Positions 176-37,119 of a stretch of 43,763 bases of DNA are shown here, in pieces. Both the position numbers and the translations under genes were made by a program. This DNA is from Methylococcaceae bacterium (GTDB lineage: Bacteria; Pseudomonadota; Gammaproteobacteria; Methylococcales; Methylomonadaceae), in assembly GCA_947506155.1 (NCBI GenBank), contig CANNNV010000006.1, positions 1-43,763 on the forward strand, read 5' to 3'. The notes under the pieces are model-generated. The model was not told the origin of the DNA. It ran no database searches and saw only the letters and a program-made list of their open reading frames with translations. Numbering within the stretch: the stretch's first letter is position 1; each line of letters begins with the position of its first letter.

Positions 176-220
176 ATCTGCATCCGAGCGAAAATTCGCC
201 CGAATGCAGATCAGTTTTTT
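176..220 (+). terminator. Second hairpin with T-tract after 5S rRNA
   Basis: atctgcatccgagcgaa-aa-ttcgcccgaatgcagat (about 17-bp stem with two mismatches) followed by cagtttttt. Confidence 0.6.
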
Positions 221-989
221 AACATCCCGCAGTGCTTAACCAATTGGATAATGCACCCAAACCTACCATATTGCCGTTCGGCCCCATAAAATAAACTTGG
301 TTATCAACAGAAGATATACCAAGATAGCTGTTGGTATTTTTGTAAAAACGGAAATAATATGAAAACATCGTTTGCGACACACTACCGACAGGCGATAGAA
401 ATTGCGTATAATTTCTTTCGGCCCAATTGAATAAACAATCGGAACTTGATGATTGGCCGCTGGAAGAGGAATCTGCTAAAGTGATTGTTTGTGATAACAC
501 ACCATGCCCTCCAGCCATTGGAAATACCGGGTTATGCCAGGATAAATGGTACATACAGGTTTGTCCCATCAATCCCCCAGGAGAGCAATCCATATAGGCT
601 AATTGATTCATATCGGTCGCACCCAGTGTTGGATCTTGTGCGTTAAAATTAATCGTGACGTAAGCGTTGTTATTGATAGGAGGATTAGTGGCAATTGCAG
701 AAGTATTTAATTCATAGACGGTTGCATTAATGCCGCCTTTGCCATCGCTTTGCGACGATGGCGAAGGAATCTGATAATTAAGCGGTTCTATATTACCCAT
801 CAAGGTGTCGTCTAATTTTCCTTGAAGATTGGTAACTTGCTGGGTCGCTGCATCGTAATCAAACGTTCCGGTGAATTTGGTGTCATCTAAAAAGATGACC
901 GAAACGTTATAACGAACGATCCCCGCTTGCGCGATATGGATATCGGTAAGCAGCATCGATAATGCGGCAAAAAATAGTAATTTTTTCAT
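219..989 (-). CDS. Secreted protein with a C-terminal 'NWAE...YYFRFY...YLGIS' module
   Basis: 256-aa ORF with N-terminal signal peptide (MKKLLFFAALSMLLTDIHIAQA). C-terminal ~73 aa resembles those of the ORFs at 7751-8731 and 15186-16841. Confidence 0.75.
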   Translation of the reverse strand: MKKLLFFAALSMLLTDIHIAQAGIVRYNVSVIFLDDTKFTGTFDYDAATQQVTNLQGKLDDTLMGNIEPLNYQIPSPSSQSDGKGGINATVYELNTSAIATNPPINNNAYVTINFNAQDPTLGATDMNQLAYMDCSPGGLMGQTCMYHLSWHNPVFPMAGGHGVLSQTITLADSSSSGQSSSSDCLFNWAERNYTQFLSPVGSVSQTMFSYYFRFYKNTNSYLGISSVDNQVYFMGPNGNMVGLGALSNWLSTAGC

Positions 990-1073
990 GTGAGTATTCC
1001 TCAGTTTTGTACTTTTAAATATAAAATGGCAGGTTTAATCGCTTTTATGCTAAATGTTGCTTGCCGTAGTTTT

Positions 1074-3230
1074 TTAGTAGTTTACGGACAAGCCTACATA
1101 GACCGATCTTCCCATTCCCGCCAGATTTTGATTGTTGGGACGAGATGAAATGAGCGTCATCGCATTTTGGTCGCCAATATACACGCCTGAGAGCGGGTAA
1201 TAATATTGTTTGTCGAGCAGGTTATCTATGCCCACATCGATGCTTACGTTTTTCCACTCGTAGCCGGTCTTCATGTTTACTAGCATGTAGGAAGAGGTTG
1301 TTAACTCGTTTCTAACTGACTGCACCTGATCTTTAGAATCGACAAACTGTAGTTCAAAGGTGTTTTTCCAACCCTTCAATTGATGATCCAAGCTAAGTTT
1401 TAAGTTGAACGGCATCATGTGATACAAATTAACACCGTCGGTACGTTGGCCATTGACATAACTCATGATGGTGTGGGTTGAAAACTCACCATAATGTTTG
1501 TCGGTATACAAGTCAGCTTTGCCGGTGACATCGACGCCCCATAAAACAGCATCATGATTAGCAAAACTCAAGTAATAGAAGCCGTTTCCGGGTTGTTTGC
1601 AAGATGCACAGCGGTCAACATCTATGTAATTTTCAACATAGCTAAAGTAGGGAGTTAATTGGAGACTCCACGTTTCAGCTTTTGGATCGAAGAAATTTGC
1701 GGTAAAGGTAAGGTTGTGCGCCGTTTCCGGTTTTAACTTCATGTTACCGGTATAACCATTGCCGTCACCGAACCAGCCGATCATGGTCATCGGCATAGGA
1801 CTGGTACTCCAAGGATACAGTTCATGTAATGAAGGCGCACGGTTCTTGCGTGCGTAGCCAAAATCATATTCACTCCAGGAGTTTGGCATATACTGCATTA
1901 ACGCCGTCAAATCAAAGGTATCGAAGTTCCGTTCATTGTTGAGCGCGTTAAAAGCGTTCGCCTGACCAAAATCAGCCGTTACGTTGTTGTAACCTTGAAC
2001 ATTTCCAGTATCGGTCATCGTATGGTCATACCGTAAACCCAGCATTCCTTTCCATTCTGTCGACCAATATGACTCCCATTCGGCAAAAGTACCGACACGG
2101 TCGCGGGTGGCGTTATTGAGATTCAGGTAGGTGTTGGGCCCCATCATACTTGGCAATGAGGACGTGGCCGGCCAAAAATCGTTGATTAAGCTGCTGTGAA
2201 ATTCATTGCCAATGCGGATGGTGTCCTGTTCTCTAAAGGGCAATTCCACTTGCACTTTGTAGCCATGATTTCTACCGCGTGTTTCCATAGGCATAGGCTC
2301 GGGCGAATTACGGTCGGAACCGTAGTCCATGGTATGGCTGGTGTTCTCCAGATAAAGTTTGGTGTCGAGACTTCCCCAAGCAAATTCGCCTTTATAGTGT
2401 ACGTTCCCAAAAATACTGTCATTATTGGTCAAATCCATGCGCGCCGTTGGGAATCCTTGAAAAGGGATATGCTGTTGGCCGCCTTTGATTTCCAATAAAT
2501 GCTCATCGACTTTGAATGAGAGTGCCATCGCATGGTTTTGGTTTTCATAAGAGCTTGATTGAATCGTCGTACCATTAGCGTCTTTGTAATTGCTACTTTG
2601 GGTATCCGAAGCGCTGTAATCCACTCTGGCATATTCATTAGCCATCCCTACGGCAATATTGCCGCCAAAAGCATCGCCATTACTGCGATAGAATGATGAT
2701 GCCTTACCCGTCAATAGGATATCTTTGCCAGGTTCGGCAAAAACCGGTGCGGAAGATTGAACGGATATCGTGCCGCCAATACTGTCGCCGCCCATGCTGA
2801 CCGGGGTCAGGCCTTTCAAAATAGTGATACTGCCAATATTGCTACGATCAATATACGATAGCGCCGGATTCATATGATTGGGACATATTGAATTGACGGT
2901 CATGCCATTCACATCAATTTTGACGCGGGTATCGTTTAAGCCATGAATAATCGGTAATGATGAGACTCCGCCTCCTGCTTGAAGAGTCACGCCAGCGGTA
3001 TCTTCTAATAATTTTGCGGTATCGGAAACTTGCGCCTGTTTACGGGTAATTTCTTTAGACTTAATTTTATCCGGAACAATTACTTCGGGTTTTTCGCCGG
3101 TAACGGTGATTTCTTCAAGAATCAAGGCTTGTGAATCCGATGGTTTTTTTCCATCGGCAGCATTGGCGTAGCCGAATGAATAAAGCATGGTAGCCAATAG
3201 ACTTAGGGTAAATGGAATTTTTGTATTCAT
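1074..3230 (-). CDS. TonB-dependent outer-membrane receptor, OprC/NosA (copper)-like
   Basis: 718 aa with signal peptide, plug domain (EITVTGEKPEV, GVSSLPIIHGLNDTRVKIDVNGM), C-terminal barrel ending in an aromatic-rich strand (SVYVGLSVNY), and SICPNHMNPALSYID containing CxxxM. Confidence 0.85.
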   Translation of the reverse strand: MNTKIPFTLSLLATMLYSFGYANAADGKKPSDSQALILEEITVTGEKPEVIVPDKIKSKEITRKQAQVSDTAKLLEDTAGVTLQAGGGVSSLPIIHGLNDTRVKIDVNGMTVNSICPNHMNPALSYIDRSNIGSITILKGLTPVSMGGDSIGGTISVQSSAPVFAEPGKDILLTGKASSFYRSNGDAFGGNIAVGMANEYARVDYSASDTQSSNYKDANGTTIQSSSYENQNHAMALSFKVDEHLLEIKGGQQHIPFQGFPTARMDLTNNDSIFGNVHYKGEFAWGSLDTKLYLENTSHTMDYGSDRNSPEPMPMETRGRNHGYKVQVELPFREQDTIRIGNEFHSSLINDFWPATSSLPSMMGPNTYLNLNNATRDRVGTFAEWESYWSTEWKGMLGLRYDHTMTDTGNVQGYNNVTADFGQANAFNALNNERNFDTFDLTALMQYMPNSWSEYDFGYARKNRAPSLHELYPWSTSPMPMTMIGWFGDGNGYTGNMKLKPETAHNLTFTANFFDPKAETWSLQLTPYFSYVENYIDVDRCASCKQPGNGFYYLSFANHDAVLWGVDVTGKADLYTDKHYGEFSTHTIMSYVNGQRTDGVNLYHMMPFNLKLSLDHQLKGWKNTFELQFVDSKDQVQSVRNELTTSSYMLVNMKTGYEWKNVSIDVGIDNLLDKQYYYPLSGVYIGDQNAMTLISSRPNNQNLAGMGRSVYVGLSVNY

Positions 3231-3282
3231 ATCCGAGCCCCAGGCAACGATTTTTCAAGGGTAAAGCTAATAGAGCGACGCA

Positions 3283-3696
3283 TTATGATTCTTCCTTGGT
3301 GATAAAGGCTAATTTGCCAATACCTGCTTTATGGACGACCGCCATGGCTTTGGCTAATTTGCCGTAAAGCACATTGGCATCGCCGTGGAATTGCACGGTG
3401 AGTTCCTCATCATTCTTTTTGAGGGTGCGCAGCGCTTCTTCCAATGTTTCAAGGGATTGCGGGGTTTCATTCAGGTTGATATTGCCTTGCATATCGATAC
3501 TGATGGTGGCGAGATGACTGAGCGGAGCAATATCGGTTTTAGTGGTTTGAGGCAAATCCACTTTTATCGCCTGGGTCAATAATGGCGCAGTAACGATAAA
3601 AACCACTAATAGCACCAACATCACATCGACCAACGGTGTAACGTTTATTTCACTCATGGGTTCTGCTTCTTCCGAAGACTGGGTATTAAAGGCCAT
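3283..3696 (-). CDS. exbD: Biopolymer transport protein ExbD
   Basis: MSEINVTPLVDVMLVLLVVFIVTAPLL is the ExbD/TolR signature. Confidence 0.93.
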   Translation of the reverse strand: MAFNTQSSEEAEPMSEINVTPLVDVMLVLLVVFIVTAPLLTQAIKVDLPQTTKTDIAPLSHLATISIDMQGNINLNETPQSLETLEEALRTLKKNDEELTVQFHGDANVLYGKLAKAMAVVHKAGIGKLAFITKEES

Positions 3697-3701
3697 CGTT
3701 A

Positions 3702-4361
3702 TTACTCCTCATTAGATTTATAAAGATTGATAATGGCTAGATTAAGAAAGTCGGTAACGAAATATTCAAAATCCGCCAGACATAATTTAATTCTGCGCAG
3801 AAAATAGTTATAAGCCAGCACGGCCGGGATGGCTGCGGCAATACCGATGGCGGTAGCAATCAAGGCCTCACCGATCGGCGCAGCGACAATATCGATGCTG
3901 GCAGATTTTGCATGACTGATGCTTTGCAACGCATGCATAATGCCCCACACGGTTCCAAATAAACCGACAAACGGCGAGGTGCTACCGATGCTGGCGAGTA
4001 AGGCTAAGCCGGTTTCGAGTTGTTTCCGTTCTTTATTAATTTGTTGGCGCATCGAACGATCCATAATCGTTTCGATATGGTTGCCTTGTTTGAGCATGGT
4101 GGAGGCGTTTTCACGGACATTCGCTAATAATTTAAATCCGACATTGGCGATTCTACCTAGCACACTTTGCTCATAGTCCAGGTGTTCAGCGTCCTGAAAT
4201 TCCTTGCAGGCCCAGAATTGTGTGCTATAGGCATGGTTGCTATGGTTTACCCGCCAAAGCACCCATACTTTGTAAATAATAATTGACCAGGTAATGATTG
4301 AAAATCCGATCAAGATGAGCAGGGTCAGTTGAACGATGTTTCCCGAAGAAAGATCTGCCAT
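3702..4361 (-). CDS. exbB: Biopolymer transport protein ExbB (MotA/TolQ/ExbB family)
   Basis: 219 aa with GLALLASIGSTSPFVGLFGTVWGIMHAL, typical of ExbB/TolQ; adjacent to exbD and tonB. Confidence 0.93.
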   Translation of the reverse strand: MADLSSGNIVQLTLLILIGFSIITWSIIIYKVWVLWRVNHSNHAYSTQFWACKEFQDAEHLDYEQSVLGRIANVGFKLLANVRENASTMLKQGNHIETIMDRSMRQQINKERKQLETGLALLASIGSTSPFVGLFGTVWGIMHALQSISHAKSASIDIVAAPIGEALIATAIGIAAAIPAVLAYNYFLRRIKLCLADFEYFVTDFLNLAIINLYKSNEE

Positions 4362-4411
4362 GAGTAATCCTTGAAATTGATAATTAAAAAAGAAATGGTT
4401 TGGGTATTGGG

Positions 4412-5275
4412 TTATTCATCAGTGTCACGTCGATTTTTTAATTTAAACGCCAATGTCTGGATCGTGCGTTGCTCAACGGCGACACCATTGACAATTTTTT
4501 GTTTAAATTTCCATTTTTGAATCGCTTCCAGTGCCGCTTCTTCGAAAATGTCACTTGGCTCGGCATTTACAATGACTGGATTATCGACACTCCCATCCGG
4601 TCGAATCACAAATTGAATGGTGACTTTCCCTTCAATGCCGCGGCGAAGCGCTTGTTTGGGATATTCAGGCGGGATTCGCTCCAATACGACGACGTTGGTA
4701 CTAAAACCTTTTGAGTCAACATCCGAAGCGCCGGTGCCACTGCCGACCCCGGTTCCTTTACCCGTCCCGACACCGCCACCTGAACCGCTGCCCGCGCCGC
4801 CGGTGATGCCAACGCCAGTTCCCGTATTGCTTTGAGCGGTTTTGGACTCGATGCCGTAACCGCCCCCGCCACCAGATGGTTCGGGGGCTTTTGGGGGCGC
4901 TGTTATGATGGGTTCCGGTTTTGGCTCAGCTTTTACTACCGGAGCAATTTTTTTAACCGCTATCGGTTTCGGTAAGGGTTTTAAAATCGGTTTAACCGGG
5001 GGGGGAGTCGGTTTAACGATCGGTTCAACGGGTTTGGGTGGCGGCGGAGGCTCAATTTTTGGAGGAGGGGGCGGCGCCTGCATAAGCGCAAATTCGAGCG
5101 ATTTAGTTTCGATAACGGCTTTGGTTTGCGCCATAAGTTGTTCGTAAAACTGCCAGACTTGAATATGCACGACACTTGACAGCGAAGCCGCCACTAAGGT
5201 GATTAGCCCTAGACGTAATTTTGCATTTGAGGGTTCCGGAGTGCTCAGAATTCTGAGGTCGTTAGTGCTCATCAT
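4412..5275 (-). CDS. tonB: Energy transducer TonB
   Basis: N-terminal TM, Pro-rich segment (PPPPPKIEPPPPPKP...), long Gly-rich linker, and C-terminal TonB domain (PPEYPKQALRRGIEGKVTIQFVIRPDGSV). Confidence 0.93.
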   Translation of the reverse strand: MMSTNDLRILSTPEPSNAKLRLGLITLVAASLSSVVHIQVWQFYEQLMAQTKAVIETKSLEFALMQAPPPPPKIEPPPPPKPVEPIVKPTPPPVKPILKPLPKPIAVKKIAPVVKAEPKPEPIITAPPKAPEPSGGGGGYGIESKTAQSNTGTGVGITGGAGSGSGGGVGTGKGTGVGSGTGASDVDSKGFSTNVVVLERIPPEYPKQALRRGIEGKVTIQFVIRPDGSVDNPVIVNAEPSDIFEEAALEAIQKWKFKQKIVNGVAVEQRTIQTLAFKLKNRRDTDE

Positions 5276-5315
5276 ATTGAAATAAAGAAGTGTAGTGCTC
5301 GACTTAGCTTAAGGT

Positions 5316-7592
5316 TCATGGGGTCAGGTAATTTTGAAAAGGTAAGAGCGGCTCATTCGAACCCTCTGCGCCTACTGCAGGGATTAATAGTAATTCGTCC
5401 TTGCCGAAATCCGGATAAGTCGCATAACTGTTGACATGATAAGTATCGCCTTCGTGGCCGTAGGGCACGTAAATTTCGGGGTGATCGAACGGTGCTCGCT
5501 GATATCGGACCCGTTCATCAGTCAGGGTTTTCAAAAATGCAATCAAATCGGAACGATTTTGTTCGGAAAAATGTAAATTTGGTAGACCAAAGACGCGGGT
5601 TACCTGTTTGGATGCATGGGCGAAGTTGCCGCCACGGGTGTAAAATTCGATGACTTGATCCAGGGTCGCCATACCCCCATTATGCATATAAGGGCCGGTC
5701 AGTTCGACATTGCGGAGGGACGGTATTTTAAAATTCGCCATGACCCCGGCGAGCATTTTTTTGCTATTCGGATTATTCAATTCCCGCAATGCCGCTTCAG
5801 TCGTTGGTAAAAATGCACTTGTTGCAGGCGGTAAATGACAATTATCGGTTGATTGCAGCTGCGGTTTAACGCCATCAATCGGCGTGAATAAGCTCACGGT
5901 CGAATAGGGCGGTTGATAATTGAGGGCAAATTCGATCTGGAAATCGCAAGGACGTACCTCGAATACTTCATTATCGACTACTTTTTGTGGACGACCTGCG
6001 AGAAATTGGAGGTATTGCTGGCTAAAAGAAAGCGGATTGCCGAAGTCATCGTTAGCGCCGAGCCCGAGATCAGCTGATTCTTGGGCAACGCCGGTCGAGG
6101 CAAAGCCCGTGTCATAAAAGGCTTCACTTGCCACCAACGGAATTCGATCAACGACATTGTAGGTTGTGCTGATCGTCAAACTCGCGTCGCTAAAAGCTTC
6201 AGGATGCGTTTTGAATAAGGCAGCATTGGCGTTGACCGAGGCAGCGGAAAAATTGGGGCCTAGATGACAGTGAGAGCATAAGTTGGCGCGAAACTGTTCC
6301 AGGCCTCTTAATTCAGCGGGGCTTAGATTGATGGGTTGATATTGTGCGTCGCGGGCGCTGTTATCGAACGGTGATTCATCGGAAATGAGGGTGCTTTCAT
6401 ACAGTTGAATAGCGAGACCAAAGAATAATGCAAAATTTGCTTCGATTTGGCTGTAAGCTCTCTCCCCGATGGGAGTGCTGAATTGTCCGAGATCGGAAGA
6501 TGACCAATATTTTGAGTTGTATGCTTGTCGAATCAAGCTGGCGTAGGTGGTATTCAGCCCCTTTTGCAAATTTCCGGAAGTGCTCAAACTTAATTTGCCG
6601 AGAACGCTGTCCTGCCAATGGACATTTTGATGTTCAAGGGGATGGCGCGGTAATAATTTACGTCCGATTTCTTTGAGACTACGCTGTGCGCAGCTCATTT
6701 CTGAGGTGTTGCTCGGGGGGGCGGTGGCTAATGATGCTAATGAAGCATTGATTAAATGAAGACGCTGTTTAATAACGTTGTGGGGACCTACTTTTACCCA
6801 CACGCCGGCGTCAGGATCGCGATCACCCCACGGGCTGCTGCCGTTGAAAACATTATTCGCTCGGCCATCCCAAAAACTGCGATGATTGAAAATGGTATTG
6901 ATAACGCTTGGCGCATTACGATGCGTTACTTTGCGGGTGCCGATCAGCCCAACGTGAAAGCTGGTGTCAGGTTGTCTTATGCACTCATCGACACTACTTC
7001 CCATTGGCGCAGTTGCAGTATATTCGCCGCCAAAGGTACCAGCGGAGCCAACGACTTGCGTAGTGTCATAAATAACCGGTGAAGATTCTTCAAACGGATT
7101 CTGGCGTTGATGTAAAGGAAAATCCCGAAGACTCAATTGATGGTTAGGGCTGAGCATATTGCCCACCAGTGAGAGCCCGAATGCGCTAGTTGTTGGAGCT
7201 GAAGACTGACCGCCCGGCGCAAGTTGGTTTTTGCTTCGACTATCCGCGCCGGCATGAAAATGACAGGAAGCGCAGGCCATGCCATCGCTGCCTACATTGA
7301 CATCCCAGAACAGTGCTTTACCTAGGGCGATTGCCGCTGCTTTATCGGTGACGATGGGATCGGGGCCATTGAGTAGACCCGGAACTTCAGGAATCGGTAA
7401 ATGTTTCAGACTGATCGGCATCGGGCCCAGATCCAATTTAGGCGCATCGGCGCTTGAAAGTGTTGCACTCAATAGCAGCATGGTTGATAAGGCATTACGG
7501 ATCAAAATACGATCCCACTTTCTAATGTTATCGATGGATATAAGTATCCGATCAGTGCTTGATAATAATACCCGGCGTGTAAATTTGGCCAT
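5316..7592 (-). CDS. Di-heme cytochrome c peroxidase / MauG-family protein
   Basis: Two CXXCH motifs (CASCH, CSHCH) and ALGKALFWDVNVGSDGMACASCHFHAG, FKIPSLRNVELTGPYMHNGGMATLDQVIEFY. The N-terminal start is uncertain. Confidence 0.85.
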   Translation of the reverse strand: MAKFTRRVLLSSTDRILISIDNIRKWDRILIRNALSTMLLLSATLSSADAPKLDLGPMPISLKHLPIPEVPGLLNGPDPIVTDKAAAIALGKALFWDVNVGSDGMACASCHFHAGADSRSKNQLAPGGQSSAPTTSAFGLSLVGNMLSPNHQLSLRDFPLHQRQNPFEESSPVIYDTTQVVGSAGTFGGEYTATAPMGSSVDECIRQPDTSFHVGLIGTRKVTHRNAPSVINTIFNHRSFWDGRANNVFNGSSPWGDRDPDAGVWVKVGPHNVIKQRLHLINASLASLATAPPSNTSEMSCAQRSLKEIGRKLLPRHPLEHQNVHWQDSVLGKLSLSTSGNLQKGLNTTYASLIRQAYNSKYWSSSDLGQFSTPIGERAYSQIEANFALFFGLAIQLYESTLISDESPFDNSARDAQYQPINLSPAELRGLEQFRANLCSHCHLGPNFSAASVNANAALFKTHPEAFSDASLTISTTYNVVDRIPLVASEAFYDTGFASTGVAQESADLGLGANDDFGNPLSFSQQYLQFLAGRPQKVVDNEVFEVRPCDFQIEFALNYQPPYSTVSLFTPIDGVKPQLQSTDNCHLPPATSAFLPTTEAALRELNNPNSKKMLAGVMANFKIPSLRNVELTGPYMHNGGMATLDQVIEFYTRGGNFAHASKQVTRVFGLPNLHFSEQNRSDLIAFLKTLTDERVRYQRAPFDHPEIYVPYGHEGDTYHVNSYATYPDFGKDELLLIPAVGAEGSNEPLLPFQNYLTP

Positions 7593-7750
7593 GATGATTT
7601 ATAAATCGTGAGTAACGCAAAAAGCCGATGATTTGCACAAGGCAAATATCGGCCGTTTACAGTGGCTTTGGCAAAGCAGTTAAAAGTCAGAATTTCATTA
7701 AACTCCCAGACTGAAACAGTTTACAAACTTTGCCAATAGGTGATGAGACT

Positions 7751-8731
7751 TTATTTGCAACCTGCAGTCGCAGCAAGATCTTTTAAAGCACCAAGATCTT
7801 TAAGGGCTCCATTGGTGCCGACTGCACTGTACAAATGGTTATCTTTTGAAGATACACCTAAGTAAGTATCCGTGGTGTTGTAATAACGATAATAATAGGT
7901 GCTCAAGGTTTGTGACGGCGCTCCTGCTGGCGTAAACTGAGTTGGATTAGTTTTTTCTTCCCAGTTAAATACGCAGTCGCTGATCGATTCAGGAAGTGCT
8001 GAAACCGTTACGTCAATTGGCGTATCGGTGCCACTGGTGTTGGTACCGCCGACGAAAATAGTGTAGAAACCTGGAGCGAGGTTTCGAAGCGTTAAACTAC
8101 CGTATTTTAAGCCACCAGTTGCGCTATAGCCTATACCGATGCTGCCATAGACACCATTTTCATATAAATTGTCGATGCTGAGATCGTAAGCACCTGCATT
8201 GACATTTCCACCGTATCGGTTCGTGTAATCCATGCCGGAGGCGTTTACATAGCCGAGCGTTTCGACAATACCATTAACCGTTGTATTACCTGCTAACGAA
8301 TTTTTGACCGAATCATCGGTTGCCCAGACAATACCCGGAGCGCCAGCTTGACCAACTTGGTTGAAACTATGGATGGCCCCGCTGATGGTTGCTTCAGAAC
8401 CGGTTCCTTTGCCGGTAAAAGCGCCATCTGTTCTATAAACAGTAAATCCCGGTGCATTTGAGACTGCAGAGGTTGCGGAAATAATGGTGGTCGTCGGTAC
8501 AAGTACTTGAAAACTCAACCAGCTTCCTTGCATACCCCAAGCATTATTAACCAGCGCGGGATTTCCGGTATAACTGTTTTTATTGGCGTTGGCTGCAATC
8601 GACTGAATTGAGGTACCTGGATCGAGAATACTGTCATCATTCACCCAGCCAGCAGCTTGAGAGGCGGCTGCAAATGTTAAGGCTCCCGTTAATAAAGTTG
8701 CTTTACAAAGGGTTTGGGTAGTCATATGCAT
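7751..8731 (-). CDS. Secreted protein with the shared C-terminal module
   Basis: 326 aa with signal peptide. C-terminus DCVFNWEEKTNPTQF...YYYRYYNTTDTYLGVSSKDNHLY... resembles the 219-989 ORF. Confidence 0.75.
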   Translation of the reverse strand: MHMTTQTLCKATLLTGALTFAAASQAAGWVNDDSILDPGTSIQSIAANANKNSYTGNPALVNNAWGMQGSWLSFQVLVPTTTIISATSAVSNAPGFTVYRTDGAFTGKGTGSEATISGAIHSFNQVGQAGAPGIVWATDDSVKNSLAGNTTVNGIVETLGYVNASGMDYTNRYGGNVNAGAYDLSIDNLYENGVYGSIGIGYSATGGLKYGSLTLRNLAPGFYTIFVGGTNTSGTDTPIDVTVSALPESISDCVFNWEEKTNPTQFTPAGAPSQTLSTYYYRYYNTTDTYLGVSSKDNHLYSAVGTNGALKDLGALKDLAATAGCK

Positions 8732-9246
8732 TGTGTAGGTCTCCTGTTATCAATCTTGTGCTTTGAACAAGATCAAAATGTGTGTTTTAAGGGTTATTCA
8801 ATCATTTAACTGTTTATCGAGTTAACCGTACTATCGGGGATACTCAAATAAAACAATATATTGGTGTTTCAAGTCAGCAGATGAGATGCTCTTGAGGATA
8901 TCGTTATAACATTCATCTTGTGCTTGCTTAATAACATTGCAGAGAATGTGCCAATAGTGGGAGTGGGTGCGATGGTTTTAAAATTAGCTATTAATATTAA
9001 TAAATTAGATGGGGATATGATTTGTTGGCGTGGTTGATCAGGACAACTGAATGGCGGGGATTAGAGGTTAATATTAAAAACTATGTTATATCCCTTAATA
9101 TATATGTGTGATATGCCACAGTTGTCATGTTTGCGAGATTTCAGAGGATAGGTAGAGATTTTGCAGCGAAATAATCCGAGTTGTTGAGGGAATGAAACTC
9201 GGTTTAGCGTAGAGGTAAAGCGGAAGGAGTGTTTTTGAGTGATTTC

Positions 9247-10854
9247 TTAGAGCGTATCCGCAAATTGTTGAGCAATCTGATCAAATTCTGCGCCTAATTC
9301 AAGAAAGGCCGCGACGAGGTCCGGATCAAAATGAGTTCCCATTCCTTCCAGAATAATGTCGCGCGCCTGTTCATGGGTAAACTTGCTTTTATAAACGCGG
9401 ACACTGGTCAGCGCATCATAAACATCGACTAGTGCTAATATTCGGGCGGACAGTGGAATTGCTGTGCCTTTTAAGCCTTGAGGGTAACCAGTCCCGTTCC
9501 ATTTTTCGTGATGACAATAGGCTATTTCCATACCGCATTTTATAAAGCTTTGCGAGGGGTATTGTTCGTAGAGGGTGCGTAAGGTGTCGCCGCCTATGGA
9601 GGCATGAGTCTTCATAATTTCGAATTCTTCAGGCGTCAGTCGACCCGGCTTTTTCAAAATTACATCTGGAATCCCGACCTTGCCGATGTCATGTAATGGT
9701 GAGGAACGCATCAAATCCAGAGTGAATTCTGGTGTGACAATCTCAGCATATTGATCGGTAGTACCTAGAAACTGACAGATTAGCGCACAGTATTTTTTCA
9801 GGCGTAATAGATGGGTGCCGGTTTCCGGATCACGATATTCGGATAATTTAGCTAATGCGGTGATAATCGCATCTTGAGCTTCTTCAAAGGCTTCTTGATG
9901 CCATTGGCTGTGTAATTTGGTGACAGTAGCATCAATCATGCCGGTCAGTGCGGCCAGAGTTTCCGTTGCAAATTTGGGTTGATCGGAACTGGCCAGATTA
10001 ACCAGACCCAATAGTCCCTGCCGACTTTTTAGCAAAATAGTCATCAGCGGCGGACCGGAAAAGAGTCGTTGTTCAAACTCATTTAACGGTATATCGGCAA
10101 GGTCGATGCATTCTGATTCTGACGAAGTTTCGAATAGCTTGGTGAGTTGGCTGTGTGTAAAAGCATCAAATGTAAACGAATGGAGCTGACTTGCTGAGGG
10201 ATATTGGCAGCTAAACGTGCCGTTGAATTGCAGGTTTAGCCAGACGTTAATCTGGTCAATCCCGGTTAATTCCTTAATCACTTCAACCAAGGCGTTGATA
10301 ATCGCCTGGGTGTCCGTCATGTGGGTCATATTGGCAACAAAATCATATTGCAGCTTGAGCGCTCGGGTTTTTTGTGCGACCAGGCTTTCGAGATGGCTGT
10401 TTAATTGATTAAGTTGCAAATTGGCGTGTTCTAATTTGAGCATTAACAACTGCTCGGATCTTTTCAGGCGGTATTGCTCCAAGCCGTCGCTGAGGGTTTC
10501 AATCAAAACTTCCTTGGGACAAGGCTTGTTTAGAAATCTTGAAATATGGGCGTTATGTAGGGCGTTAACTGCCAGATCCAGTTCGGCTCTGCCAGTGAGC
10601 ATAATCAATACGACTTGCGGATAATTGCGATGTACCGTATTTAACAAAGTAATGCCATCCATTGTCGGCATATTGTAATCCGAGACGACGATTGCAAAGG
10701 GACCGGCGTTGTGCAGAATCGCTAAGGCACTCTCACCACTGTCGGCAGTCGTAATATCAAACTCTTTACGTAATTGACGTTTGATCCCTTCAAGTAACAA
10801 GGCTTCATCATCGACGAACAAAATTTTCCTGCTGATTTCTTCTATAGTGCTCAT
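9247..10854 (-). CDS. Response regulator with REC, GAF-like and HD-GYP domains (predicted c-di-GMP phosphodiesterase)
   Basis: REC: ILFVDDE...VVSDYNMPTMDG...LNKPC. HD-GYP: SSPLHDIGKVGIPDVILKKPGRLTPEEFEIMKTHASIGGDTL...YCHHEKWNGTGYPQGLKG. Confidence 0.92.
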   Translation of the reverse strand: MSTIEEISRKILFVDDEALLLEGIKRQLRKEFDITTADSGESALAILHNAGPFAIVVSDYNMPTMDGITLLNTVHRNYPQVVLIMLTGRAELDLAVNALHNAHISRFLNKPCPKEVLIETLSDGLEQYRLKRSEQLLMLKLEHANLQLNQLNSHLESLVAQKTRALKLQYDFVANMTHMTDTQAIINALVEVIKELTGIDQINVWLNLQFNGTFSCQYPSASQLHSFTFDAFTHSQLTKLFETSSESECIDLADIPLNEFEQRLFSGPPLMTILLKSRQGLLGLVNLASSDQPKFATETLAALTGMIDATVTKLHSQWHQEAFEEAQDAIITALAKLSEYRDPETGTHLLRLKKYCALICQFLGTTDQYAEIVTPEFTLDLMRSSPLHDIGKVGIPDVILKKPGRLTPEEFEIMKTHASIGGDTLRTLYEQYPSQSFIKCGMEIAYCHHEKWNGTGYPQGLKGTAIPLSARILALVDVYDALTSVRVYKSKFTHEQARDIILEGMGTHFDPDLVAAFLELGAEFDQIAQQFADTL

Positions 10855-12080
10855 GACAACTTCAGGGCTTCGATGATACGTTTAAAATGCAGTTCACACA
10901 GCGAAATATCATCGCATTGCGGTTGTGTTTGCCGGTGAATGCTTAGTTGCTGGATGGCTTGATCAATTCTGCGCTTGCCGGGCGGCGTGTCATGCAGGAG
11001 CTCAATTAAACGCTCGCTGCCGAACATGACTTGATCAGGGTTTCGTTGTTCAGTGACGCCGTCGCTGCAGATAAACAGTGATGCCACATCTTTTAAATCG
11101 TGACAGGTCGAACTGCGCGAAAAATCATAGGCGGCGTGAATGCCTAAAGGCAGGTTGTTCGAATGGAGCGACTTGACTATTTCACCCCGGTCATTCAATA
11201 AATAAGCATCAGGCATGCCGCCCTGCCAACTGATTAATTGCTTGGAAAGCATATTTATTTTACCGAGTAACGCGGTGCAGAATAACCCGGTGGGTAGTTT
11301 ACGACACATCTTATCGTTAATCGCTTTTGCTAACTGTTCAATATCGGGCTCACGGATACATAGATCGTCGAACACTTCGGCGACTAATAATATTGCCAGC
11401 GCTGATTGCAAGCCGTGACCGGTTAAATCGCCCATCATGAAGTAAAAGCTTTGTTTTGACTCACTGGCATGCGTTAGCAAAAAATCACCGCCAATAACTT
11501 CTTTTGCTGCAATGAAGTAATCGAGTCCATCCGGACTGGCATGTCCGTACTCGGTTACTTTCATATAGACGGTTTTCGCCATTTCCAGTTCTTGTTCGAG
11601 CAGATATTTTTGTTTGGATAAGGTGTTGTTGACTTCAAGGAGTTCGCAGTTTTTTTCTTCCAACTCTAAAGTTAGGCGTTGTTTATCAATGAACAAACGA
11701 TATTGATCAAGCGCATCACTTATCACTTTACGCAAAATCTCCATTGGACAGGGTTTAGGCAGATAACGAAAAACTTTGGTTTCATTAATAGCTTGGATTG
11801 CGACATCCAGTTCAATGCTGCCAGTGAGCATAATTTGAATACTTTCGGGCGATGCTAGTTGCGCCAATTTCAAAAATTCAACCCCATTTATTCCCGGCAT
11901 GTTGTAGTCCGACAAGATCACTGCAAAATCAGGATGTTGGCTAATCAAATCCAGGGCGTTTCTGGCAGAATTGGCGGTGAATAGTTGATATTCCCGGCCC
12001 AGGGTACGACGAAATAAATGCAGGATATTTTCTTCATCATCAACGCACAGAATTTTATCGGAAAATTTTTCTTTCATCAT
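10851..12080 (-). CDS. Response regulator with PP2C/SpoIIE-type phosphatase domain
   Basis: REC: ILCVDDEENIL...ILSDYNMPGINGVEF...LPKPC. Phosphatase motifs: AAKEVIGGDF, FMMGDLTGHGLQSALA, LFICSDGVTEQRN. Start/stop overlap with the next gene. Confidence 0.9.
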   Translation of the reverse strand: MMKEKFSDKILCVDDEENILHLFRRTLGREYQLFTANSARNALDLISQHPDFAVILSDYNMPGINGVEFLKLAQLASPESIQIMLTGSIELDVAIQAINETKVFRYLPKPCPMEILRKVISDALDQYRLFIDKQRLTLELEEKNCELLEVNNTLSKQKYLLEQELEMAKTVYMKVTEYGHASPDGLDYFIAAKEVIGGDFLLTHASESKQSFYFMMGDLTGHGLQSALAILLVAEVFDDLCIREPDIEQLAKAINDKMCRKLPTGLFCTALLGKINMLSKQLISWQGGMPDAYLLNDRGEIVKSLHSNNLPLGIHAAYDFSRSSTCHDLKDVASLFICSDGVTEQRNPDQVMFGSERLIELLHDTPPGKRRIDQAIQQLSIHRQTQPQCDDISLCELHFKRIIEALKLS

Positions 12081-12087
12081 GAATCTC

Positions 12088-13317
12088 TTATTTTTTGAGG
12101 TGAGAGGTCATGACTTTAGTGGCTAAAAGTTGCCAGTCAGCCAAACGATCAGTTTTTCCCAGTCGTTCGAGATAAGCCAGATCCAGTTCAATATTGAATA
12201 AGCGTTGAAAATCTTGAGCCGAGGCGTGTTCGATTAAGCAGGTGGCAACGTGAACCGCTGTTAAGGCGTTCATTCCGTCATAATCGGTTTGATTTGGGGT
12301 ATTTTGCAATAAGATTGCTTCAATGATGCGAGGGGGGATTTTCCATAGACTCAATAGGTAGGTTGCAGCTTCAGGAGCCGTAAAGCCAAAAATAGTGGTT
12401 TCGAGTTGTCTGATCGGGATATCCGTATGTTTAACCTGCTCAATCAAGGTCTTGAGTTTATGACCGCCGCGTGACAAGAAAATCAGTAAGCCCAGATTAT
12501 GCAATAATCCGCCCAAATACGCTTGATCAGGCCGGTCTTCCTGCTGATTTTCGGCTAAAGCAATCAAGCGGGCTAATTCAGAAACCTTGGCGGCATCTTG
12601 CCAAATATATTCCATATATAAAGTCGTTTCAGGGTCTGGTGCTGGAAACTGCGCTTTTAAATGTGCCGATAACAACAGGTTATTCAGGCGTTTGATACCA
12701 ATCAGATTAATCGCTTCACTCAGGCTAGAAACAGTTCGTTTCATTCCGAAATAAGGCGAATTAATGAGTTGCAGTAACTTGGCCGAGAGTCCTGGATCCT
12801 TTGCAAAAATATCGGCAATAATGCGCGGGGTGGTATTTTCATCGGCAATTGCGGCATTCAGTTCACGGTATATTTTGGGTAAACTGGGTAATTGATTGAT
12901 ATCGCCCAGGCCTGAAATGATCTGAGGATTGTCAATACAAGTCTGAATTGTGAAAACCTGCGTGATTGCTTCATGGAGATTTTCGGGGCTGCAAGGTTTG
13001 GTTAAATACTGATGCGCGTATTCTAAAGCCTTCTGTAATGAATCCTCGCTGGTATACCCGCTAAAAATCATCCTAACGGTGGCGGGATGCTGTTCCAGCA
13101 CCTTGGCTAACAATTCATCACCGCGCATTTCGGGTAACATGATTTCGCTGATAATCAAATCAATCGGTTGCGCTGCCATCAATTCGAGGGCTTGCTGCCC
13201 GGTTTTGGCAAAAAATAACTGCCAGAAATTCCGATAGGGCCTCAGCTGACGTTGGATACCGCTGATAACATTGTCGTTGTCATCCACAAACAGGATGTTT
13301 TTTTTGTTCACTGCCAA
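12088..13317 (-). CDS. Response regulator with HDOD output domain
   Basis: REC-like: NILFVDDNDNVISG...LIISEIMLPEMRG...LTKPC. HDOD: LPSLPKIYRELNAAIADENTTPRIIADIFAKDPGLSAKLLQLINSPYFG. Confidence 0.9.
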   Translation of the reverse strand: MAVNKKNILFVDDNDNVISGIQRQLRPYRNFWQLFFAKTGQQALELMAAQPIDLIISEIMLPEMRGDELLAKVLEQHPATVRMIFSGYTSEDSLQKALEYAHQYLTKPCSPENLHEAITQVFTIQTCIDNPQIISGLGDINQLPSLPKIYRELNAAIADENTTPRIIADIFAKDPGLSAKLLQLINSPYFGMKRTVSSLSEAINLIGIKRLNNLLLSAHLKAQFPAPDPETTLYMEYIWQDAAKVSELARLIALAENQQEDRPDQAYLGGLLHNLGLLIFLSRGGHKLKTLIEQVKHTDIPIRQLETTIFGFTAPEAATYLLSLWKIPPRIIEAILLQNTPNQTDYDGMNALTAVHVATCLIEHASAQDFQRLFNIELDLAYLERLGKTDRLADWQLLATKVMTSHLKK

Positions 13318-13327
13318 GTTCTCGTTG

Positions 13328-14836
13328 CTAGCTCATGGGTAATTGGATATGAAAGGTGGTTCCTTCGCCCGAAGTGGATTCAAAAAACAATTTACCGCGA
13401 TGTTTTTCCACGATAACGGTATGCGCTAAACTCAAGCCTTGACCGGTGCCTTTGCCAACCGGTTTGGTTGTAAAAAATAGATTGAATACCTTTTCTTTAA
13501 TATCATTAGGAATACCCATGCCGTTATCTTGGATCAGTATTTCAACCATATTATCATTTTTCAATTTACAGGTAGTAATTCTAATCAGGCCGCGGGTGAT
13601 TTTCTTTTCATCAATTGCATGAGCGGCATTGATAATTAAATTCAGAAATACCTGATTAAGGTCGCTCGCATAACCTTCAATAGCGCCTAAATCCTGAGCA
13701 AAATCAGTTTCAATATCGGCAATATATTTGTAGTGATTTCGACTGATAATAATTGCACTGGTAAGCGCTTCATGCAAATTAAAGCGTTGTTTGTTTTGAC
13801 TGGCGTCAAAATGCGAAAAAACTTTCATCGCTTTGACAATTTCGGTGACTTTGCGGACACCGTCAAGCGATTGTTTAATCGCTTTCGGACTATCCTCAAG
13901 AATAAAGGCTAGATCGAACTGTTCGGCTAAGTTATCGAGTTGCGGGTGAAGGGCGGGCTCCAATTCTGCGTATAGTGCCTGTTGATAGGCAATGATATCC
14001 GTGAGGTTGGTATGCAGCGCTGCAAGATTGTCACCGATGTATTGAATAGGCGTATTGATTTCGTGAGCAACACCTGAGGCCAGTTGTCCAATCGCTTCCA
14101 GTTTTTGCGCTTGATTAAGCTGTGCTTCCAGGTGTTTAGTTTCACTAATGTCATCGATTAAGCCTGAGAAAAAAACCCCCCCATCGATATTCATCGGATT
14201 GACTCTGAATAATGCCGGAAAATTTTCACCGTTTTTGCGTTGAGCTTTTACTTCTCGTCGCTTACCTATTATAGAGGAGTGCGGATTTTCAAAATTGCGG
14301 TGCAAGAATCCATCATGTTGCGCTGCGGTCTCTTCGGGCATAAGGCAATTAACATTTTTACCAATGATCTCACTCAGCTGATAACCAAAGATTTGCTCGG
14401 CAGAATGATTAAAACTGAGGATACTGCCATGCATATCGATGGTAATAATGGCGCTGGCTGCAGAGTCGAGAATGGTATTCAATTGAGTCGTGCGATAGGC
14501 TAGACTGTCCATTTTTTGCTTTAACAGCGAACCTATCCTGCCGATAATACTGCCGAAAAATCCTAGAAAAAGTGGAGCAGTCCAGACCACAATCAAAACA
14601 TAATGCGTTCTATGCATGGCAACGACATTATCCCAAGTCAGGCTCAGTTGCTGATGCCAGAACATAAATAAGATAGTCATTATCGGAAAAAGCAAGCCTA
14701 AAAAACCCGAAAGGTAAATAGGTAATGCCATGGGGTAACGTAGCAATGCATTGATTATCATAGACTTCAATCGTAAAACGAATTTTGAGTCGGTCGAAAA
14801 ACTAAAACTAAAACTATTCGGTTTTGAAAACAGCAA
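13328..14836 (-). CDS. Membrane-bound PAS-domain sensor histidine kinase
   Basis: Two TM segments; PAS: LDSAASAIITIDMHGSILSFNHSAEQIFGY; H-box ASGVAHEINTPIQYI; N-box FLNLIINAAHAI; G-boxes DNGMGIP, GTGQGLSLAHTVIVEKHRG. Confidence 0.93.
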   Translation of the reverse strand: MLFSKPNSFSFSFSTDSKFVLRLKSMIINALLRYPMALPIYLSGFLGLLFPIMTILFMFWHQQLSLTWDNVVAMHRTHYVLIVVWTAPLFLGFFGSIIGRIGSLLKQKMDSLAYRTTQLNTILDSAASAIITIDMHGSILSFNHSAEQIFGYQLSEIIGKNVNCLMPEETAAQHDGFLHRNFENPHSSIIGKRREVKAQRKNGENFPALFRVNPMNIDGGVFFSGLIDDISETKHLEAQLNQAQKLEAIGQLASGVAHEINTPIQYIGDNLAALHTNLTDIIAYQQALYAELEPALHPQLDNLAEQFDLAFILEDSPKAIKQSLDGVRKVTEIVKAMKVFSHFDASQNKQRFNLHEALTSAIIISRNHYKYIADIETDFAQDLGAIEGYASDLNQVFLNLIINAAHAIDEKKITRGLIRITTCKLKNDNMVEILIQDNGMGIPNDIKEKVFNLFFTTKPVGKGTGQGLSLAHTVIVEKHRGKLFFESTSGEGTTFHIQLPMS

Positions 14837-15185
14837 GAAGTGATCGGTTGAGGCATATCTTTGCTATTTTAAAGTGAAAAAATTTTGGTCCAGTTCGCGC
14901 TTAAGGTGGTTTGTGTCAAAAATGCAGGGATCTTGCAGAACGTATTCTAAATTACCTGCCAAATCTCCAACTTGAACTTATAAGACCGCTATTTTTTCAT
15001 TATTCAAATCACATAGCAACAATTTATGGCGTCTTTGACCTTTGGCTTTGTTAGCGTTTATCTTCTTTGTGATGTAACTATTTGAGCTGTTGCCTATGAA
15101 TTTTACTTAAGAGTCCATTTTTACCACTTGCTTGGGTGTCTAGACAAATACCAGCTATCACAACAAGAGCGACTCGCCGATGCTA

Positions 15186-16841
15186 TTAAAAACCTTTTGC
15201 CGCCGACTGGGTAAGGTAACTATTCAATTCACCTACATCCAAGAAATTCCAGTCACGTCCATTGTGAATGATCACGCGACTGCCGTTGGTTGCCAGATAG
15301 TTATCAGTGGCTCTGTAATAGCGGTAGCGATAGCTCTCGTATGTTCCTGATATGCCGCCTTTCGGGAAGTATTGCGGGAAACTCAGTTCGGCCCACTTGG
15401 CAACTCGATCGAAAGCTGTGGGTGATTGATCGATTTCATCCGCACCAATATCCATCAGGGTTTCACGCACTTGAGCATCAAGATCGTCAGTGATTTGAGA
15501 AAGCGTAATTCCTTTGTTGATGGCTGGACTATTGGCAAGCAAATGACCATCACTCGTGACACTGATAGCCTCCGTGAAACTGTGTTGATCGCTTGTTTCA
15601 TGCGTTTGCCATTGTGAAAATGAACCGCCTTCTGCAAGCGGATTACCAGGGCGATTGTCAGCAAAATTACACGCGCCGGTTTCGTTATAAAACCAGTTGT
15701 AATCTGTGCCCGGACTGCCCGTTAAACCGAAGACACCCTCGGTGCTGATTTCATTGGCCCAACGAATCCGGGCGCAGTCACCGCCGTTTTGAATAATCAG
15801 ATTATTACGAATCAATGGATTAACGGTTGCTGGACGACCTGCGATCGGATCGAAATCCTGCAGCGTCACGCCAAAATATAAGGCGGCATGCCCCGCTTTA
15901 GCCGTGTGTACTAAAGTGTTATTGGCGATCAACGCATCTTGTGCCGCATATAAACCGATACCGGCAAAACCGGTATCGCGAACGACATTATTGCGTACGA
16001 TTCCGCGAATACTTTCGTAATAACGCGGGTTAAGCTGGGTATCGAAAAACTCCGGGCTGGTATCGAAGCCGACCATAATGCCGCCCAAGCCGGTGCGTTC
16101 AATACGGTTGCGCTGCACGATCACATCGGCAGCACCACCTTTAAAATAGAGGCCGGTTGTCGCAATGTCATGAATATAATTGTCTTCTACCAGCATGCGA
16201 CTACCATTAACATTATCAATACCTTCGGCATTTTTATCATCCAACGCGGTTCCTGGAGGGTAAATTTTGCCGGATTGGAAAATTTCGCAGCGCCGAATGG
16301 TAATGTTGTCACTTTTGGGGGTAATTTTGATCGCATCACGACCGGTATCATGGATTTTGCAATCCTCTACGATTACATTCGATGCGCCTTTGCCCTGACG
16401 ATTATCGCGCCCATCCCAATCGGTCTGAAAAAACAGCCCGTATAAATTGCCGCCCGTCACTTCAATTCTCGAAAGCCGACTACCCGAAGCATCGGGGTCA
16501 ATCTGAATGCACACGCCATCCTCCAGGTTGAGCGGGCAATTTATAATCGCCCATTCGCCTGGATACGAACGCAAGGTCAACGGCATGCGCAAGCGTACTT
16601 CGGTTTCTTGATAAATATTGTTTCCGGCCATGCCTCGCAACGTTAGGGTATCTCCCGGATTCACCAAGGCATTTTCCGGGCTTAATAGGTAGCCTAAGGT
16701 TTTATACGGATTCGCCAAACTACCGCTGCCGCTGGTATCACTGCCGGTCGGCGACAAAAACCATTCGGCGGCATTCAGGTTGCATGAAAGTGTTATCAAG
16801 ACCAAAAACAAATAACGGTAGCTCAATGAGTCGGTTTGCAT
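15186..16841 (-). CDS. Secreted right-handed beta-helix (pectate-lyase-like) protein with the shared C-terminal module
   Basis: Signal peptide; AEWFLSPTGSDTSGSGSLANPYKTLGYLL; repeated NNxI/xxNxIxxT beta-helix coils; C-terminus KWAELSFPQYFPKG...YRYRYYRATDNYLAT. Confidence 0.8.
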   Translation of the reverse strand: MQTDSLSYRYLFLVLITLSCNLNAAEWFLSPTGSDTSGSGSLANPYKTLGYLLSPENALVNPGDTLTLRGMAGNNIYQETEVRLRMPLTLRSYPGEWAIINCPLNLEDGVCIQIDPDASGSRLSRIEVTGGNLYGLFFQTDWDGRDNRQGKGASNVIVEDCKIHDTGRDAIKITPKSDNITIRRCEIFQSGKIYPPGTALDDKNAEGIDNVNGSRMLVEDNYIHDIATTGLYFKGGAADVIVQRNRIERTGLGGIMVGFDTSPEFFDTQLNPRYYESIRGIVRNNVVRDTGFAGIGLYAAQDALIANNTLVHTAKAGHAALYFGVTLQDFDPIAGRPATVNPLIRNNLIIQNGGDCARIRWANEISTEGVFGLTGSPGTDYNWFYNETGACNFADNRPGNPLAEGGSFSQWQTHETSDQHSFTEAISVTSDGHLLANSPAINKGITLSQITDDLDAQVRETLMDIGADEIDQSPTAFDRVAKWAELSFPQYFPKGGISGTYESYRYRYYRATDNYLATNGSRVIIHNGRDWNFLDVGELNSYLTQSAAKGF

Positions 16842-16927
16842 GGTGTAGTCTCCCTTTAAATAGAGAAATTCAAAGTTATAAGCTTAAACGTAAACGCATA
16901 AAAAAAGCGCGATAGCCATTAAGTCGT

Positions 16928-17566
16928 TCATGGTCCTCGTTGAAGGGTGATATTTACAACCTTGTCATACTGGGAATCCTGCCATTCGATGACTCCATTG
17001 CGCACCACACCCTCACTGCTCGAATAGCGCGAACCCTCTTCGGTTATATAACTAAAGCCGCATTTTAAGCTTAGGGTATCCTCGTGCCAATTCCCTTCGG
17101 TCGCCAAATTCAGTGAGAAATTTTTCCGAAGGAGCGTTTGTTCGTTTGCCCGAAAATTCAACTCGTTAAGCTTATGAAAATCTTCCTTGTTCACACTGCC
17201 CCAGACTTCGTAATCTTCTCGTCCGTTCGGACCATTGACTACCGCTGCGCCTTCAAAAATCTGCTTTTCCTTTCGCCCACCTAAGCCTTTTCGTTTTGGT
17301 AAGCGTTTGGCGGCTTTCTTCTGACGCTCCTCTTCAGTGACCGGAACAACAATCTCGAGCGCAAGATTTTTTTGCAAGCCATTGGGATCAATGAATGTAC
17401 CATGCCATTGCCCCACCAGCAGTTTAGCTTTAGCGTCTTCGTTATAGGCCCACGGGCGACTGTGTAGATCAGAGCGATAGCTGAAATAATACTTAAGCTC
17501 GTAAACACCCCAACTGATGCCCGCAAGGACCGTAAAACCTAAGAGTAGTAGGTGACTTTTCTGCAT
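16928..17566 (-). CDS. Hypothetical protein, N-terminal TM/signal anchor
   Basis: 212-aa ORF, 4-bp gap to the next co-directional ORF; hydrophobic N-terminus (HLLLLGFTVLAGISWGVY). Confidence 0.6.
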   Translation of the reverse strand: MQKSHLLLLGFTVLAGISWGVYELKYYFSYRSDLHSRPWAYNEDAKAKLLVGQWHGTFIDPNGLQKNLALEIVVPVTEEERQKKAAKRLPKRKGLGGRKEKQIFEGAAVVNGPNGREDYEVWGSVNKEDFHKLNELNFRANEQTLLRKNFSLNLATEGNWHEDTLSLKCGFSYITEEGSRYSSSEGVVRNGVIEWQDSQYDKVVNITLQRGP

Positions 17567-17569
17567 ACG

Positions 17570-18388
17570 CTATATTTTTATTTGGAAGGACATTTTCAAA
17601 ATATTTTTTTTGTACGGGCCGATTTTAGTGACATCGATTGATAAGTCCATTATCGGATACTTGCCGCTTCCGCCAAAGACGGAGCCTGCACTCATAGTAT
17701 AAACGAGTTCAGTGAGTCCAAAGCTTGTGGCTAACTGTTCGCTATTTCCTCCGGTTAAGGTCAATTTGCCGTATTCAATTGCGTTTCCGTTCAATTTGAT
17801 GGCATTCAAACTCCATCGATTTTCCTGGGTTTGCCCATCTTGCTGAGCAACCAGTCGGCCATCGCTAAAAAACTCCCAAGTAATATTTTTAGGTCTATGG
17901 TCTGTGTAGGTTTCAACGATTGAACCATCTTGTTTGGTAATTTCATAACCGGAACTTAACAGCAACCATTTGCCAATCAACGTTTGAAAGTTATCCGGCT
18001 TTGGGTTCACTGTCTTCAAAATATTGGTGACGGTATCGTAATAAATCGGTTTATCGCCCCTTACTAAAGCACTACCTGTAATGTAGTACACGCCGTTATC
18101 CGGTTGATACACACCCACTAGAAGATCTGCTGCAGGATAGCTTCTATAGAGCCAATCACCAGCCGTGCTGGTCGGTTGGGTTGGGCTTAGGGTTTGCGAA
18201 AATGATGTTTCCGCCCAGTTAAGTACCGTGTCGGCATCGCTTTTAATATCTGCAGTTACGCTGGTGATCGTCGCGAGCAGCATGCCTGTAAAACCTGACA
18301 TCATCAATCGTTTACTATTTTTCATATCTTTAAGTCCTGAGTGCCATTGTAAACGGTGTAAATAGTCGTGCATTTGAAAGTGGGTCAT
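17570..18388 (-). CDS. Secreted hypothetical protein with the shared module near its N-terminus
   Basis: ADTVLNWAETSFSQTLSPTQPTSTAGDWLYRSYPAADLLVGVYQPDNGVYYITG. Likely start is internal to the ORF (e.g. MKNSKRLMMSGFTGMLLATITSVTA). Confidence 0.65.
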   Translation of the reverse strand: MTHFQMHDYLHRLQWHSGLKDMKNSKRLMMSGFTGMLLATITSVTADIKSDADTVLNWAETSFSQTLSPTQPTSTAGDWLYRSYPAADLLVGVYQPDNGVYYITGSALVRGDKPIYYDTVTNILKTVNPKPDNFQTLIGKWLLLSSGYEITKQDGSIVETYTDHRPKNITWEFFSDGRLVAQQDGQTQENRWSLNAIKLNGNAIEYGKLTLTGGNSEQLATSFGLTELVYTMSAGSVFGGSGKYPIMDLSIDVTKIGPYKKNILKMSFQIKI

Positions 18389-19388: not shown

Positions 19389-19443
19389 AAAGTCTCCTAA
19401 GATTAAAAAATAAAGTGGGTGTTGTTTTACTGATTGATTGTGT

Positions 19444-36070: not shown

Positions 36071-36230
36071 TCTGGACCAAGTATTTAGGATTGCTAGTTT
36101 AGTTGATGTCCAGATAGAGTACACCCTATCCTGATGTCAGGACAAATACCTATATCTTGTCAGAATAGAGTGTATTTTTGTTTTTATTGACACATGTTGC
36201 TAAGAGTTATAGATTCTATCCTGACATTTT
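36071..36230. promoter_or_regulatory. tnpA-tnpR intergenic region, probable res site
   Basis: Divergent genes. Contains the tatcctgatgtcagg palindrome, related tgtcagaatagag and tatcctgacat elements. Confidence 0.6.
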
Positions 36231-36879: not shown

Positions 36880-37119
36880 ATGTCGGCTGTACCCGTATTT
36901 CGGGCGTTGCGTCGTACTGGTATAGACGCCCCCACACAGGGCGCACATCTGCTAAGGCATTCTGCAGCAACGACTATGCTACGCGATGGTATGTCACTGC
37001 CAGCCATTGGCGCTCTCTTACGCCATACATCGATTGAGACAACCGCGATTTACGCGAAGGTGGACATCGAACTGCTCAAAGAGGTCGCGATGCCTTGGCC
37101 GGAGGGGCAGCCATGTTAA
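36880..37119 (+). pseudogene. RIT-type tyrosine recombinase A, 5'-truncated by the Tn3-family element
   Basis: Only the C-terminal catalytic part remains: GAHLLRHSAATTMLRDGMSLPAIGALLRHTSIETTAIYAKVD. The reading frame starts inside the TIR. Confidence 0.85.

Follow-up and report, generated by a model that had tools for sequence, protein, structure and literature searches.

A shared module in four exported proteins

The window, that is, the whole stretch of 43,763 nucleotides analysed here, corresponds to contig 6 in the 90%-complete, 2.86 Mb assembly of a Methylococcaceae bacterium, which its neighbours in named collections place with Methylobacter. Four genes on its minus strand encode proteins that share a module of ~75 amino acids, and alignment of the four copies gave seven invariant columns. 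The proteins and their module copies are as follows.

219..989, minus strand: P0001, with a signal peptide, a body without known family, a short Ser linker and the module
222..449, minus strand: module copy 1, C-terminal end of P0001, with a DC...GC cysteine pair
7751..8731, minus strand: P0002, with a signal peptide and a body whose homologs end in the module or in a PEP-CTERM tail
7754..7984, minus strand: module copy 2, C-terminal end of P0002, with the cysteine pair
15186..16841, minus strand: P0003, a right-handed beta-helix protein with the module at its C-terminus
15192..15416, minus strand: module copy 3, C-terminal end of P0003, lacking the cysteine pair
17570..18388, minus strand: P0004, with a likely signal peptide, the module and then a domain without Pfam match
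17999..18241, minus strand: module copy 4, divergent, N-terminal in P0004, immediately behind the signal peptide

The initial annotation had described one module recurring in four otherwise unrelated secreted proteins, three times at the C-terminus and once, in a divergent form, at the N-terminus. To avoid circularity, a profile was made of 25 module copies, all taken from genomes other than the own one, and the window was searched with it in all six frames. Exactly four matches were obtained (98.5, 87.8, 48.5 and 47.5 bits; E-values from 6e-30 to 5e-14), within a few residues of the segments first noted and all on the minus strand, and the three C-terminal positions and the N-terminal position in P0004 were borne out. 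Since the top profile score among 50 residue-shuffled windows was 9.3 bits, chance is excluded for the four copies. The remaining parts of the proteins are dissimilar, as had been proposed: P0003 is a beta-helix protein, and a Pfam scan found no credible family for P0001, P0002 or P0004. The signal peptides assigned to all four are in agreement with their N-termini, each of which is signal-like.

Other genes of the window include four signalling genes between P0002 and P0003 (9247-14836), which by their translations encode a PAS histidine kinase and three response regulators, one of HD-GYP type, one with phosphatase and one of HDOD type. The module genes are adjoined by genes for two exported proteins of the Lcl_C (DUF1566-type) kind and for a large protease of the papain family (18459-20790 and 20979-24131). 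Farther on, a Tn3-like transposase gene and a serine resolvase (33116-36818) are followed by two tyrosine-recombinase genes (37095-39016), all read from their translations.

The module represents a genome-wide family with a shared predicted fold

Outside the window, the own genome contains at least two more intact module copies, on contigs C51 and C29, as well as a copy on C82 that an insertion has broken, indicating that the four window copies belong to a genome-wide family. Many more copies were found by the profile in other genomes. Within the genus the module was patchily distributed, being present in 7 of 23 genomes with up to 12 copies each; it was found in 35 of 151 genomes of the family and in 4 of 274 in a class-wide sample. 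A scan of named genomes with a 7-row module alignment as the query yielded 105 loci, most of them from Methylococcaceae, Nitrosomonas, Sulfuricella and further Betaproteobacteria; Methylobacter and other Methylococcales were also among the hosts, as were isolated MAGs that carry the labels Acidobacteria and Desulfobacteraceae. A viral origin was rejected, since neither BFVD nor phage or plasmid sequences gave a match to the module. As a separate observation outside the window, an identical MITE-like insert of ~134 bp, whose inverted ends are imperfect (CTGACGG...CGAGGG) and which is flanked by 6-bp repeats (TTATAA, TATATC), interrupts the module in C82 (L008) and lies directly upstream of the module in C51 (L005).

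A known domain was ruled out as the identity of the module, because no Pfam, NCBIfam or significant PDB match was found; it thus did not turn out to be an already characterised domain. When 31 copies were compared with Pfam-A, in which the SLH, LysM and carbohydrate-binding module (CBM) families are included, none scored above the gathering score (the best match, with a family that is unrelated, had E 0.035), and the sole match of 31 copies to the NCBIfam sorting/anchor models (T9SS, GlyGly-CTERM, MYXO-CTERM, choice-of-anchor) was to a catechol dioxygenase at E 0.09. A literature search with the sequence motif of the module gave nothing relevant. AlphaFold predicted a helix, five strands and a helix for a typical copy (pLDDT 97), and the same order of elements with one extra short helix for the divergent P0004 copy (pLDDT 90.9), although both alignments include other module copies and the two predictions are not fully independent. 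The most divergent segment is therefore predicted to share the typical fold, not to fold differently. Foldseek searches of the PDB with both copies gave no match at E <= 0.001 (TM below 0.5), and Foldseek found no significant relative among the viral models of BFVD. The top PDB match of the typical copy was Polo-box 3 of PLK4 (E 0.048, TM 0.44, not significant), which, unlike the module, is a eukaryotic intracellular domain and which was not the top match for the divergent copy; significant structural similarity to the polo-box fold was thus not found. In a separate search, designed 'Cake' proteins ranked high, but were rejected because the match covers only an 18-residue stretch summed over repeats.

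Module carriers are diverse and nearly always exported

Among 128 non-redundant complete carriers, the module was located at the very C-terminus in 90, near the N-terminus after a signal peptide in 31 and elsewhere in 7; 17 carriers had two copies. Its partners include exported lipases, alpha/beta hydrolases, cyclophilins, PhoD phosphatases, phosphoesterases, CAP, RCC1, Sortilin/BNR and SBBP beta-propellers, a VCPO-type peroxidase and PKD arrays, and, identified by reading the sequences, amidohydrolases, a di-heme peroxidase and a PQQ-type dehydrogenase. With so many unrelated exported partners, the module is portable, as the initial annotation had supposed. In addition, in Nitrosomonas two loci (L089, L101) encode what, judged from sequence, is a cupredoxin-like exported body with a C-terminal module, possibly another copper-related carrier.

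A signal-like N-terminus, called by a simple hydrophobicity heuristic, was present in 120 of the 128 complete carriers, so that the module sits nearly always, if not in every case, on exported proteins. In 130 module copies Arg34 was invariant and Tyr36, Tyr52 and Gly66 were nearly invariant. Of the cysteines at columns 5 and 77, 104 copies had both, 21 had neither and 5 had just one (Fisher p 5.5e-19, with the qualification that related copies are not independent). This is the pattern that would be expected of a disulfide joining the two ends of the module, and such a bond would point to an oxidising, extracytoplasmic location. Together, the signal-like starts and the covariation of the terminal cysteine pair support an extracytoplasmic location well.

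The module and PEP-CTERM tails exchange on the same protein bodies

The bodies of P0002 and P0001 were used as queries with the module left out. A set of 301 genomes from the order gave 30 P0002-body homologs with a readable end. The module formed the end of 10 of these, and a PEP-CTERM tail of the VPVPAAVWLFGSALAGL...RRK type that of the other 20; none had both and none had neither, and the two kinds of end were attached at an identical junction. Homologs of the P0001 body comprised 14 with the module, about 11 with PEP-CTERM and a few with other ends. PEP-CTERM tails were identified by eye, the TIGR02595 profile being silent even in controls. In each body tree the module forms were a single clade (support 97/95 and 100/99), indicating one exchange per body family. 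Furthermore, all genomes with module-P0002 and a complete P0001 gene had module-P0001, whereas none of the genomes with PEP-CTERM-P0002 did. On contig C170 of genome G364 (L226), PEP-CTERM and module P0001 bodies occur ~3 kb apart, flanking an OprC-like receptor gene. In the N-terminal lipase family, no swap of the module for PEP-CTERM was observed. A weaker pointer to tail exchange comes from P0003, in which residues 429-469, immediately before the module, gave a sub-threshold match to NCBIfam choice-of-anchor Q. Choice-of-anchor domains (e.g. choice_anch_Q, NF041518) are, by name, bodies that precede interchangeable anchors; they would correspond to the body part, whereas the module is the anchor-like part.

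The module is nonetheless not itself a PEP-CTERM tail. None of 133 module ORFs carried such a tail, and the PEP-like motif, hydrophobic helix and C-terminal basic cluster were found neither in module ORFs nor in the tails of the window proteins. Like PEP-CTERM, the module marks diverse exported proteins C-terminally, yet it is also found N-terminally. The PEP-CTERM/exosortase (EpsH) system (PMC1569441) resembles it in being a terminal tag on unrelated signal-peptide proteins of outer-membrane environmental bacteria and in being borne, one tag or the other, by the same protein bodies. PEP-CTERM, however, is a short C-terminal motif with a transmembrane helix and a basic cluster and is presumably cleaved, while the module is a folded domain of 75 amino acids that can lie at either terminus, frequently has a cysteine pair at its ends, is sometimes in tandem and occurs also where exosortase is absent.

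Exosortase (PF09721) was absent from the own genome and from three others, G005, G011 and G020, all four having 7-12 module copies, in a search whose control was positive; G011 and G020 are 100% and 99% complete. These genomes indicate that the module does not need exosortase. Three genomes of the genus with one or two module copies each have exosortase, and a genome-wide replacement of exosortase by the module was hinted at in the genus. It was not borne out in the family, in which module genomes more often have exosortase (29 of 35 vs 70 of 116 without the module; Fisher p 0.015). Most genomes thus have the two systems side by side, and the exchange between them takes place at the level of single proteins.

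P0001 and P0002 belong to a putative copper-uptake cluster

The region at 219-8731 of the window contains, in this order, P0002, a MauG-type di-heme protein, TonB, ExbB, ExbD, a TonB-dependent receptor and P0001. The genes between the two module carriers are as follows.

1074..3230, minus strand: TonB-dependent receptor, whose only solved relatives are OprC copper receptors
3283-3696, minus strand: ExbD, assigned from its translation
3702-4361, minus strand: ExbB, assigned from its translation
4412-5275, minus strand: TonB, with a TonB_C Pfam match
5316..7592, minus strand: MauG/di-heme cytochrome c peroxidase family protein

The receptor matched OprC chains in phmmer (E 3e-15), and CPNHM in its plug aligned with CPNRM (CxxxM) of OprC, in which copper is bound by a CxxxM-HxM motif (PMC7558416); HxM motifs also occur in the receptor sequence. 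Apparently, the region is a copper-uptake cluster with its own TonB-ExbB-ExbD. Its core is conserved across Methylococcales, with ExbBD-TonB sometimes missing. The MauG-type gene was near P0002 in every examined P0002 locus, with either tail, and module-P0001 adjoined the OprC-like receptor in all examined loci that have it. In genome G023, an Lcl-like protein with a PEP-CTERM tail, judged from its sequence, adjoins the P0002 homolog.

In methanotrophs, a di-heme peroxidase gene is co-transcribed with the gene of CorA or MopE, which are surface proteins that bind copper (PMC3912023), and the CorA/CorB and MopE/SACCP copper loci thus place a surface protein beside a di-heme peroxidase, as P0002 stands beside the MauG-type gene. 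The P0001 and P0002 bodies were rejected as CorA/MopE homologs, with no sequence match to CorA or MopE in the PDB. Because they are not detectably related to those proteins, we infer a role in copper acquisition from genomic context. Their clustering with an OprC-like receptor and a MauG-type enzyme suggests that two of the four window copies, those of P0001 and P0002, probably serve to hold proteins of a copper-acquisition system at the surface.

Discussion

The initial annotation had read the module as a sorting, anchoring or ligand tag. The tag reading is supported, and among the three options anchoring is favoured, though not proven, because the module exchanges with PEP-CTERM tails. We consider it somewhat likelier than an even chance that the module is an independently folded domain by which exported proteins are kept outside the cell, either at the outer surface or within the extracellular matrix. 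According to this proposal, Sec would export the carrier, the module would fold, with a C5-C77 disulfide closing it where the cysteines are present, and it would remain uncleaved on the mature protein, where it would bind non-covalently to a component of the envelope or of the exopolysaccharide. The module would then do by binding what exosortase/PEP-CTERM is thought to do by tail processing, with no exosortase needed. PEP-CTERM proteins have been linked to exopolysaccharide and to the floc matrix (PMC1569441, PMC9850573). Precedents of the proposed kind would be the SLH, LysM and carbohydrate-binding modules, which, like the module, are small folded end domains, sometimes in tandem; these hold unrelated proteins to envelope polymers. 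The module differs from them in having no Pfam match and no significant match to a solved structure. Counting against retention are the number of swaps, two, both of them in one gene cluster, the family-level exosortase pattern, and the lack of a swap in the N-terminal lipase family. To our knowledge, experimental support for the function of PEP-CTERM itself is thin.

The likeness to carbohydrate-binding modules, small, with conserved Tyr/Trp-rich sequence and terminal or tandem placement, together with the many hydrolases among the carriers, would also suit a ligand-binding domain (e.g. carbohydrate-binding) that aims enzymes at an external substrate and does not retain them on the producer cell. 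We think this unlikely, though worth weighing: cyclophilin, lipase, phosphatases, propellers and copper-locus proteins have no common substrate, no CBM family or fold matched, and substrate targeting leaves the exchange with PEP-CTERM unexplained. That exchange is instead what a recognition tag for outer-membrane export, for example by type II secretion, would share with a sorting signal, and confinement to exported proteins at either terminus points the same way; but a folded domain at either end, and in tandem, would be an unusual transport signal, and with no NCBIfam match to T9SS-type or other sorting-tail families such a tag appears improbable. The least probable explanation is that gene fusion has spread the module just as a stabilising cap or for oligomerisation, its alternation with PEP-CTERM reflecting variable C-termini without a shared role. 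The trees, which need just one exchange per body family, are compatible with this, but variable ends do not sit well with the 30 P0002 homologs, none of which is without either tail, or with the finding that the genomes in which P0001 switched its tail are those in which P0002 did so; both observations suggest that the two tails lead to one destination.

Retention on the surface thus remains the reading that we prefer. A wider proposal, which we put forward tentatively and hold to be possible rather than likely, is that methanotrophs and nitrifiers have a new exosortase-free surface-display system, in which a terminal domain with an envelope or polysaccharide receptor took over PEP-CTERM cargo, including copper-acquisition proteins. 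Little is known about the means by which Gram-negative bacteria of the environment retain enzymes and metal-binding proteins at the cell surface or in the matrix, and the occurrence of the same body with either tail offers a direct comparison of the module and PEP-CTERM. The module may serve as a searchable mark for surface proteins of methanotrophs and ammonia oxidizers. It also points to a copper-uptake locus with partners that would be held at the surface, in hosts whose methane oxidation depends on copper.
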